A program made the translations under genes and the position numbers. A stretch of 64,000 nucleotides of DNA from the NCBI RefSeq assembly GCF_018279705.1, contig NZ_CP036498.1, forward strand, positions 2,745,001 through 2,809,000, given 5' to 3'. Of this stretch, positions 14,694 to 28,735 are shown in pieces. A model generated the notes under the pieces. The model was given only the letters and a program-made list of their open reading frames with translations, ran no database searches and was not told the origin of the DNA. The stretch's first letter is position 1, and each line of letters opens with the position of its first letter. This DNA comes from Tardiphaga alba (lineage in GTDB: Bacteria; Pseudomonadota; Alphaproteobacteria; Rhizobiales; Xanthobacteraceae).

Positions 14694-14816
14694 CCCGTCA
14701 TCCTGAGGTGCTCGCCGTCTTCGGCGAGCCTCGAAGGATGCGGCCACGAACACCGGCGCCCGCGGCCATCCTTCGAGGCTCGCAAGTGCTCGCACCTCAG
14801 GATGACGGCGGAGTGG
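14694..14816. repeat. Dispersed 123-bp palindromic repeat, copy 1
   Basis: The outer arms CGTCATCCTGAGGTGC and GCACCTCAGGATGACG are complementary. Inside are CCTCGAAGGATGCGGCC and its complement, so the whole folds as a long hairpin. A second copy of identical length without gaps lies at 26498-26620. Both copies sit directly after transport operons, between a gene end and a gene on the opposite strand. Confidence 0.9.
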
Positions 14817-20352: not shown

Positions 20353-20562
20353 ATGCCCACAGGTACCGTAAAATTCTTCGACGCCAATAAAGGCTTTGGC
20401 TTCATCGCGCCGGAAGGCGCCAGCCAGGATGTGTTCGTGCACATCTCGGCTGTGGAGCGCGCCGGCCTGCACTCCCTCACCGAGGGACAGAAGGTGAGCT
20501 TCGAAGTCGTGAAGGATAAACGCAGCGGCAAGAACGCTGCCGACAATCTTCAGGCTCTCTGA
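20353..20562 (+). CDS. cspA: Cold-shock protein (CspA family)
   Basis: A 69-residue single OB-fold protein that binds single-stranded RNA/DNA and acts as an RNA chaperone. RNP1 KGFGFI and RNP2 VFVHIS are intact, preceded by TGTVKFFDANK. ATG 20353 is chosen because the family starts M.TGTVKFF; the open frame runs further upstream only by chance. A hairpin (20578-20606) and a terminator (20617-20650) follow. The region 20184-20352 would form a long leader, as is usual for csp mRNAs. Confidence 0.95.
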   Translation: MPTGTVKFFDANKGFGFIAPEGASQDVFVHISAVERAGLHSLTEGQKVSFEVVKDKRSGKNAADNLQAL

Positions 20563-20577
20563 TGCGATGACATCCTT

Positions 20578-20606
20578 GTCACGTCCACGGATGTACTGGA
20601 CGTGAC
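20578..20606 (+). repeat. Hairpin just downstream of cspA
   Basis: GTCACGTCCA and TGGACGTGAC pair perfectly around a 9-nt loop, 15 bp after the cspA stop. No T run follows; the true terminator lies 11 bp further on. It may stabilise the mRNA 3' end. Confidence 0.6.
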
Positions 20607-20616
20607 TTGGACCATG

Positions 20617-20650
20617 AAAAAGGGCCGCGCATCTGCGCCGGCCCTTTTTT
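20617..20650 (+). terminator. Intrinsic terminator of cspA
   Basis: AAAAAGGGCCG (20617-20627) pairs with CGGCCCTTTTT (20639-20649), followed by a run of six T in total. It could also stop transcription from the other side. Confidence 0.85.
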
Positions 20651-20725
20651 GTTGCCTGGCACATCGCGCCTTGGCGACGGCGACGGGAATGCCTGTCTAC
20701 CCATCCGCTCTCGCGCGGACTAGAC

Positions 20726-26497: not shown

Positions 26498-26620
26498 CCC
26501 GTCATCCTGAGGTGCTCGCCTTCTTAGGCGAGCCTCGAAGGATGCGGCCACGAACTCCGACGCGTGCGGCCATCCTTCGAGGCTCGCAAACGCTCGCACC
26601 TCAGGATGACGGCGGAGTGG
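26498..26620. repeat. Dispersed 123-bp palindromic repeat, copy 2
   Basis: Same length and end points as the copy at 14694-14816, differing only by scattered substitutions, several near the hairpin centre (for example CTTCTTAGGCG for CGTCTTCGGCG). It lies between the pit stop and the sugE stop. Confidence 0.9.
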
Positions 26621-26630
26621 AGAGCTCCCT

Positions 26631-26945
26631 TCAGCTGACCAGCTTGAGCCCGGCAATCCCGGCCACGATCAGGCCGATACAGGCGATCCGCGCCACCGTG
26701 GCGGGGTCGCCGAACAGGTAGATCCCCAGCGCCGCGGTGCCGACCGCACCGATGCCGGTCCAGACCGCATAGGCGGTTCCCATCGGCAGTTCCTTCAGCG
26801 CCAGCGCCAGCATGCCCACCGACGCCGCCATGCTGGTCAGCGTCAGCACGGATGGCACGAGCTTGGTAAAACCCTCGGTATATTTGAGACCCACGGCCCA
26901 GCCGACCTCGAGCAGGCCGGCAACGAACAGAATGAACCAGGCCAT
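26631..26945 (-). CDS. sugE: SugE/Gdx guanidinium exporter, SMR family
   Basis: A 104-residue, four-helix small multidrug resistance protein. Glu13 in [22 protein letters not shown] is the coupling residue, and the WAVGLK motif after it is typical of the SugE/Gdx (guanidinium/H+ antiporter) branch rather than EmrE. ATG 26945 is set by the AGGGAGG ribosome site (26953-26959); the longer open frame upstream runs through the riboswitch. A guanidine-II riboswitch directly upstream confirms the guanidinium role. Confidence 0.93.
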
Positions 26946-26967
26946 GGAAGGGCCTCCCTGTGAACAG

Positions 26968-27011
26968 GCAGGGCCGTCCCTGCAGTGAATGAAAATTTGG
27001 AGGTCGTCCTC
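26968..27011 (-). promoter_or_regulatory. Guanidine-II (mini-ykkC) riboswitch controlling sugE
   Basis: On the minus strand two hairpins carry ACGR loops, the defining feature of the class: GAGG-ACGA-CCTC (27011 to 27000) and GCAGGG-ACGG-CCCTGC (26983 to 26968), with a 16-nt linker. The ribosome site AGGGAGG and sugE start follow 9 and 23 nt later. The CCTCC made of the first hairpin's 3' arm plus one base (27003-26999) is complementary to GGAGG of the ribosome site, suggesting that ligand-stabilised hairpins free the site and switch translation on. Confidence 0.88.
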
Positions 27012-27118
27012 GCGGGCTTTATATGGGGTCCTGATGCGCCCGCCGCAACGCGGCCGAAGGTCGCCGCATCCCGCCAAAAACCCTTGAAATCGCTCCCTTT
27101 CCCTGCCACAGCCTCGCC

Positions 27119-28735
27119 ATGTCCGACACCGCCGCCATTTCCAATTCCGCCGCGTCTCCGCTCGCCCTCGAAGTGGCGCGCCGCCGCACCTTTGCGATCA
27201 TCTCGCATCCTGACGCCGGCAAGACCACGCTGACGGAAAAGCTGCTGCTGTTCGGCGGCGCCATCAATCTCGCCGGCCAGGTCAAGGCCAAGGGCGAGCG
27301 CCGCAACACGCGCTCCGACTGGATGAAGATCGAGCGCGACCGCGGCATCTCCGTCGTCACCTCGGTGATGACCTTCGAATTCCAGGGCCATGTCTTCAAC
27401 CTGCTGGACACGCCCGGCCACGAAGACTTCTCGGAAGACACGTACAGAACGCTCACCGCGGTCGACTCCGCGATCATGGTGATCGACGCCGCCAAGGGCA
27501 TCGAGGCGCGCACGCTGAAACTGATCGAGGTCTGCCGCCTGCGCGACATCCCGATCATCACCTTCGTCAACAAGATGGACCGCGAGAGCCGCGACATCTT
27601 CGATCTCCTGGACGAGATCGAGAAGACGCTGGCGCTGGATACCGTGCCGATCAACTGGCCCGTCGGCCGCGGCCGCGATTTCGTCGGCACCTATGACATC
27701 GAGACCGGCGGTATCCGCCTGCTCGAAGGCGGCGGCGCCAAGACCGGCGCCGGCGAGAAGATCGAAATCTCCGAACTCGCCAGCCGCAACACCAATCTCG
27801 ACGCCGATGAAATCGCCGGCGAACTCGAACTCGTCAAGGAAGCCGGCAAGCCGTTCGACCTGCAGGCGTTTCGCGAGGGCCACATGACCCCGGTCTATTT
27901 CGGCTCGGCGCTGCGCAATTTTGGCGTCGGCGACCTGCTCGAAGGCCTTGGCCGTTTCGCCCCGTCGCCGCGCGCGCAAGAAGCGGATATCCGCAAGGTG
28001 GAAGCCGAGGAGCCGCGCATGTCGGCCTTCGTGTTCAAGATCCAGGCGAATATGGATCCCAACCACCGCGACCGCATCGCCTTCGCGCGCCTGTGCTCGG
28101 GCAAGCTCACCCGCGGCATGAAGGCCAAGCTGGTGCGCACCGGCAAGAACATGTCGCTGTCGTCGCCGCAATTCTTCTTCGCCCAGGACCGCGCCATCGC
28201 GGACGAAGCCTATGCCGGCGACGTGGTCGGCATTCCCAATCACGGCACGCTGCGCATCGGCGACACGTTGACGGACGGCGAGGACATCACCTTCATCGGC
28301 GTGCCGTCATTCGCGCCGGAAATCGTCCGCCGCGTCCGCCTCGGCGATGCCATGAAGGCCAAGAAACTCAAGGAAGCCCTGCAGCAGATGTCGGAAGAGG
28401 GCGTCGTGCAGGTGTTTCGTCCGCGCGACGGCGCGCCGGCCCTGGTCGGCGTCGTCGGCCCGCTGCAGCTCGACGTGCTCAAAGCGCGCCTCGATGCGGA
28501 ATATCAGTTGCCCGTGAGCTTCGAGATTTCGGAATTCTCGCTGGCGCGCTGGATCTCGTCGGAAGACGCCAAGAAGCTCGACACCTTCATGAACGCCAAC
28601 AATTCCGGCGTTGCCGACGACGTCGACAACGATCCCGTGTTCCTGGCCAAGAACGACTTCTATCTGAACTACACGAAAGAGCGCGCGGAAGGCATCGTGT
28701 TCTCGAGTGTGAAGGATGTGAAGAAGAAGGGGTGA
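27119..28735 (+). CDS. prfC: Peptide chain release factor 3
   Basis: A 538-residue translational GTPase that recycles RF1/RF2 from the ribosome. The G1 box is [10 protein letters not shown]3 is [16 protein letters not shown], and G4 is NKMDRE. The RF3-specific domain 2/3 follows ([48 protein letters not shown]), as does the C-terminal [27 protein letters not shown]. Full family length. Start ATG 27119. It is divergent from sugE across about 100 bp that holds the riboswitch. Confidence 0.96.

Follow-up and report, generated by a model that had tools for sequence, protein, structure and literature searches.

The gdx/sugE gene on the minus strand of the analysed DNA (a stretch of 64 kb, referred to as the window) is preceded by a further member of a known riboswitch class, Guanidine-II (mini-ykkC, Rfam RF01068). 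Based on folding models, we consider it likely that this leader acts as an ON switch for the translation of the exporter, with the P2 hairpin as the main lock of the ribosome site and the P1 hairpin as a second lock. Translational control in the ON direction would be consistent with the class. The presence of the element, its class, its target gene, its conservation and its complementarity to the ribosome site were computed or read directly. The features of the locus are the following:

27119..28735, plus strand: prfC (release factor 3), divergent neighbour (profile match and genus comparison)
27043..27048, minus strand: TTGCGG, -35-like (comparison of genus leaders)
27020..27025, minus strand: CATATA, -10-like (comparison of genus leaders)
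27000..27011, minus strand: P1 hairpin GAGG-ACGA-CCTC (sequence reading and Rfam alignment)
26999..27003, minus strand: CCUCC, the P1 3' arm and one C beyond the stem, complement of the ribosome site (sequence, folding, leader comparison)
26984..26999, minus strand: 16-nt linker CAAATTTTCATTCACT (sequence reading)
26968..26983, minus strand: P2 hairpin GCAGGG-ACGG-CCCTGC (sequence reading and Rfam alignment)
26946..26980, minus strand: predicted OFF hairpin, which excludes P2 (MFE structure of 27011-26943)
26953..26957, minus strand: GGAGG ribosome site, 7 nt ahead of the ATG (sequence reading)
26939..26955, minus strand: possible AGGCC/GGCCU hairpin across the start codon, which competes in some ensembles (terminator-like scan and folding)
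26945-26943, minus strand: ATG start of gdx (sequence reading)
26631..26945, minus strand: gdx/sugE, SMR guanidinium exporter of 104 aa (ORF frame, NF008512, PF00893, PDB match 6wk5)

An earlier note on this DNA had described the two hairpins, the 16-nt linker, the CCTCC at 27003-26999 and the GGAGG at 26957-26953, all of which proved exact on direct reading. Its observation of a guanidine-II element before gdx is confirmed as real. The covariance-model search that it had proposed, realized with the Rfam models (cmscan, 4227 families) on the whole window, detected Guanidine-II at 27015-26969 of the minus strand with 33.5 bits (gathering score 32, E = 0.0061). In a search of the own genome (5.86 Mb) with this single family, the gdx leader obtained an E-value of 1.3e-4 and was the third of three elements above the cut-off. 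The score is marginal, barely past the gathering score, and the class assignment receives extra weight from conservation, the two-hairpin leader being found before 17 of the 18 best gdx matches of the genus. The element displays two stem-loops with ACGR loops and G-C closing pairs, and it precedes a guanidine efflux gene (SugE/Gdx). No Guanidine-I element was found in the own genome.

The protein encoded downstream of the leader passes the cut-off of the SugE equivalog NF008512 (146 bits vs 126), and its best solved relative is the SMR protein 6wk5 (104 bits), which we take to be a Gdx protein; EmrE obtains 47 bits. By these scores the gene is of the Gdx/SugE subtype of the SMR family, in agreement with the target proposed in the earlier note. 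Among the matches listed, the closest named record is a Tardiphaga MAG with 99% identity in Gdx. The divergent gene prfC is located upstream in all 17 genus leaders. Directly downstream of gdx, a palindromic repeat of 114 bp occupies positions 26499-26612 of the window (24-nt arms complementary at 88%, inner 17-nt arms at 100%), with a further site at 14699-14804; the end motif CATCCTGAGGTGC is present in four copies in the window, which form two opposed pairs with equal spacing. Elsewhere in the window, positions 20519-20653 (plus strand) match the alphaproteobacterial sRNA ar35 in Rfam (45.1 bits vs a gathering score of 45).

No promoter was reported at the leader by a generic scan, and the promoter-like motif was seen only by comparing relatives: the sequence TTGCGV-N17-CATATA lies 12-13 nt ahead of the P1 loop in 15 of the 17 genus leaders. 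From the spacing of this motif, the transcript probably starts at or just before P1, near 27015-27011.

The gdx match itself is present in all 18 genomes of the genus, and the Rfam model matches anywhere in 14 of them (E up to 0.01). Among the 17 leaders of the genus, L235 carries the altered P2 loop AACGG with one extra A, a possible natural loop variant in a relative whose Gdx is 99% and PrfC 97.75% identical. The genome that breaks the pattern, L251 (Gdx 77% identical, genome 81% complete), shows no element in the 100 nt examined upstream. In L237 and L239 long inserts separate P2 from the ribosome site, as natural variants of the expression platform, and the insert of L239 has palindromic ends by eye; the linker is longer in L240, L242 and L243. 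Beyond the genus, Guanidine-II matches were detected in 145 of the 296 genomes sampled from the family (E up to 0.01), in 194 of 265 genomes of genus g25 (E up to 0.05) and in 111 of 397 genomes sampled across the order (E up to 0.001). Genus g25 is taken as Bradyrhizobium because its leaders match named Bradyrhizobium ones. Some loci of the family (L012-L017, L023, L025 and others) carry two ACGR hairpins before non-SMR genes, the proteins of which begin with MILTEQEKAEVE or MTVSVETQ.

The leaders were compared from 378 loci, those of genus g25 being 30 + 60 chosen stretches that are part of the matches. These loci contain 267 SMR starts, of which 31 have no two-hairpin leader by a strict rule (4 bp, ACGR loop); the 236 others gave 205 unique leaders, and after removal of seven without a recognisable ribosome site, 198 were analysed. 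The leaders are related and the counts below are therefore not independent. Ensembles were computed ligand-free with ViennaRNA, in a model without ligand, kissing loops or magnesium.

In these 198 leaders, the ligand-free ribosome site is paired on average with the 3' arm of P2 at 0.43 and with the tail after P2 at 0.20, and the minor partners are the P1 3' arm (0.09), the coding start (0.09) and the linker (0.06). The dominant partner is the P2 arm in 103 leaders, the P1 arm in 25, the segment between P2 and the site in 22, the linker in 19, the coding start in 18 and the spacer in eight, and three leaders have none. When the P2 stems are randomised, P2 pairing drops from 0.42 to 0.15 and that of P1 climbs from 0.115 to 0.265; in 162/198 leaders the real P2 exceeds its control. 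With random P1 stems, P1 pairing falls from 0.115 to 0.015 and the real stem exceeds the control in 100/198. When the tails are swapped between leaders, P2 pairing falls from 0.42 to 0.29 and P1 pairing is unchanged (0.118 vs 0.115), with no sign in these swaps of P1 tracking its own ribosome site. P2 is matched to the tail of its own leader, and P1 to ribosome sites in general.

The complementarities themselves are found in the 3' halves of both hairpins in the clade, far more often than chance would give, for P1 and for P2 with the spacer. They were counted in the 127 leaders that share the P2 type of the window, a group whose definition makes no use of P1. The P1 arm forms at least 5 bp with the ribosome-site region in 107 of these 127 leaders, against 22% for random P1 stems (arm plus one base; the region extends from 1 nt upstream of the site to 5 nt downstream of it; G-U allowed); the same match is found in 11/52 other leaders and in 0/19 Rhizobium-type leaders. 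The P2 loop and arm form at least 8 bp with the ribosome site and spacer, G-U allowed, in 63/127 leaders, against 3.9% for spacer shuffles, and such matches are absent from the 19 Rhizobium-type leaders and from 51 of the 52 other leaders (the one without a full spacer being left out). P2 matches of 6 bp are only mildly enriched (98/127 vs 61% with random P2 stems that keep the loop and the GG/CC pairs). The P2 complement includes the ACGR loop that binds the ligand, as in the pairing of ACGACCCU with AGGGUCGU.

In the same 127 leaders, the last position of this loop (R) was compared with the base that follows the ribosome site: 78 have A-T, six A-C, 10 G-T and 21 G-C, and 12 have A after the site (raw Fisher p = 1.3e-10). 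On the gdx gene tree, this pair undergoes four complementary double changes and one double breaking change; among the single changes, five from A to G leave a G-U wobble and eight break the pair (four of R, four of the spacer base). The covariation of the loop R and the spacer Y is weak, and we rejected it as decisive proof since the table is convincing but the changes on the gene tree are mixed.

The cost of opening the ribosome site was calculated for 197 leaders, one long leader being excluded. For the genus set (14 leaders) it averages 9.4 kcal/mol when the RNA is free, 6.05 when P2 is held and 5.0 when P1 is held as well. If P2 alone is held, the share of the site paired with the P1 arm is 0.52 in these 14 leaders, against 0.14 with random P1 stems. 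The Bradyrhizobium-like set was partly selected on the P1 arm, which introduces some circularity into its P1 values. The 100 leaders that belong to neither set show a small effect (from 5.5 in the free RNA to 3.95 when P1 and P2 are held).

For the window's own leader (L003), the MFE structure of the RNA 27011-26943 keeps P1 and places the P2 loop and 3' half on the ribosome site, at -23.2 kcal/mol against -19.1 when P1 and P2 are enforced. In the resulting predicted OFF hairpin, the inner helix pairs GGCC 26975-26972, which spans the junction between the P2 loop and its 3' arm, with GGCC 26954-26951; CCUG 26968-26965 pairs further with CAGG 26960-26957, and GGGA:UUCC is outermost. Over 35 choices of transcript ends, the site pairs more with the P2 loop and 3' arm in 27 and more with P1 in five, with a tie in three; in three of the 35, the sequence downstream of the site (spacer and coding start) outweighs P2. 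The 111-nt RNA folds no better than its shuffles (z 0.96).

The model of the earlier note can be put as a single lock in which the CCUCC of the P1 3' arm pairs with GGAGG, P2 being folded in both states, and we consider this unlikely. The pairing is the MFE structure of the RNA 27030-26920. In the RNA 27011-26943, together with P2 and CUG(UUCA)CAG, it reaches -18.9 kcal/mol, and the comparable state in which P1 and P2 are folded has -16.0, but the P2-based hairpin of this shorter RNA lies lower, at -23.2. The share of P1 as a partner is only 0.01-0.19 for transcripts that start at 27011 or 27013 and up to 0.58 for a start at 27020, so the favoured lock would depend in this model on the transcript start. 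Because 22% of random P1 stems reach 5 bp, a match of this length is unremarkable in a single sequence, and the support for the P1-arm pairing therefore rests on its conservation. As a conserved option the CCUCC:GGAGG pairing is plausible, but it is probably secondary here: it is a minority partner in most ensembles, and the larger computed partner, the P2 loop and 3' arm, is absent from the earlier model.

Two other readings place the block elsewhere. Published models of other members, in the accessible parts of PMC9094411, PMC9300104 and PMC9561414, put the anti-ribosome-site strand in the linker (E. coli) or block the site with a P0 helix that involves the 5' flank (P. aeruginosa). Such an arrangement appears extremely improbable for this leader, where CAAATTTTCATTCACT contains no CUCC, the anti-SD strand is not in the P1-P2 linker as in the E. 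coli type, the linker pairs with the site at about 0, and the promoter-like element lies so close to P1 that it would leave little 5' flank for a P0 helix. That the element is a decayed or weakly active relic, with a start-codon hairpin hiding the site regardless of ligand, is very improbable. The score close to the cut-off (33.5 bits vs 32) speaks for a relic, as do a pairing of 0.58 between site and coding start that persists when P1 and P2 are held, and an opening cost that goes only from 8.5 kcal/mol (free) to 6.5 (both held); however, both ACGR loops and both stems are intact and the leader is kept in 17/18 genus matches. With P2 alone held, the P1 share in this leader is low (0.14) because the site pairs with the first codons, which take 0.50. 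Such first-codon pairing (AGGCC/GGCCU) would blunt the ON state.

For the reading that we prefer, with P2 as the main lock and P1 as the second, we infer the dominant helix, the logic of two locks and the ON direction in this leader. Without guanidinium, the ribosome site would be masked by the 3' half of one of the sensing hairpins. As the main lock, the end of the P2 loop and the P2 3' arm would pair with the site and the following bases to form one long alternative hairpin; should P2 fold, the 3' arm of P1 would take over with CCUCC:GGAGG. Guanidinium bound in both ACGR loops of the P1-P2 kissing complex would keep both hairpins folded, and with both of them held, GGAGG would be freed and more exporter made. 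If this is true, the gate would open only with both hairpins held, and cooperativity would be built into the platform. A P1-arm lock was not found in the accessible parts of the guanidine-II papers cited here, and we do not claim its novelty.

The own genome contains two further Guanidine-II elements above the cut-off. One lies before a second SMR gene, whose 117 bits fall short of the SugE cut-off (126), and the other is located 123 nt before a second gene for the ATP-synthase subunit a, of which the genome has two copies by PF00119. The loci are:

L001:1580-2329 (minus strand) and L002:1501-1545, in the own genome at G000:C1:1403848-1404843: extra subunit a and its element
L382, L383, L388, L403-L406, L411 and L431: further subunit-a loci with the element

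In the sample of the order, seven of 397 genomes have two matches to the extra subunit a (E up to 1e-70). Six of these seven were examined (the second copy of G105 was left out), and in all six (G000, G730, G735, G818, G843 and G910) Guanidine-II is found a short distance upstream of whichever copy resembles the query most. A switch-linked subunit a is also present in G169, G189 and G244, which belong to the genus, and in G1295, where the switch was recognised only as two ACGR hairpin loops. This gives ten switch-linked copies from four families, and an SMR start lies downstream of the linked gene in seven of the ten. Among 51 distinct subunit a genes, taken from the best-scoring part of the matches, all ten linked ones read RLFAV, with Val at the fourth residue past the conserved Arg (Arg+4), against Asn in 40 unlinked ones; one further gene is truncated. 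A DNA pattern for the variant subunit a recovered none of 385 genomes, but this count is uninformative as the pattern missed the own genome too (Leu codon TTG).

By its spacing, Arg+4 would correspond to N214 of E. coli, a residue near the c-ring and Ag+-accessible according to the accessible part of PMC6377231. The extra subunit a is possibly a guanidinium-resistant stator subunit. A guanidine switch with ATP synthase or atpB is not reported in the accessible parts of PMC9971707 and PMC12342949, and we regard guanidine-II before a variant subunit a as more novel than the gdx leader itself. Taken jointly, a two-lock gate that needs both hairpins and a switch-linked subunit a (Asn to Val) that answers guanidinium poisoning of F0 form a tentative proposal, which we hold for possible and somewhat doubtful. 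If true, guanidinium would be a poison of the F0 motor, and the cell would swap a stator subunit while exporting the ion. The link to the variant subunit a would then suggest a molecular target for the toxicity of guanidinium, an effect that is ascribed to general chaotropic protein damage in the part of a review that could be accessed (PMC12186494).

Compared with the RF01068 family, the leader displays the same two ACGR hairpins, the GG/CC closing pairs and the short linker directly before sugE/gdx; it differs by a P1 of only 4 bp and by complements of the ribosome site that are included in both 3' halves and not in the linker. The known systems are described here from the accessible parts of the reports. 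In P. aeruginosa, ribosome loading in vitro increases with guanidine (apparent K1/2 2.2 mM, Hill coefficient 1.5), and the difference lies in the proposed P0 helix that sequesters the SD (PMC9561414); by their numbering, the mutated residues C7, C8, C32 and C34 would lie in the 5' flank and the linker. For G. violaceus, the authors suggested a stem loop that overlaps both P2 and the ribosome site and cannot coexist with the folded riboswitch (PMC5486947). This is the same idea as the P2 lock proposed here, but it was suggested for one sequence and the P1 lock is not in the accessible text. The gdx leader of E. coli has the same gene, the same aptamer class and a proposed ON switch by freeing of the SD, but its anti-SD is drawn in the P1-P2 linker (PMC9094411, PMC9300104), and the predicted one here is in the 3' halves of the hairpins. 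Folded in the same way, the E. coli leader places the site on the P2 arm at 0.64-0.73, unlike the drawn linker model, a mismatch that may be a limit of the folding model. The platform with two hairpins offers a testable alternative to the linker model drawn for E. coli.
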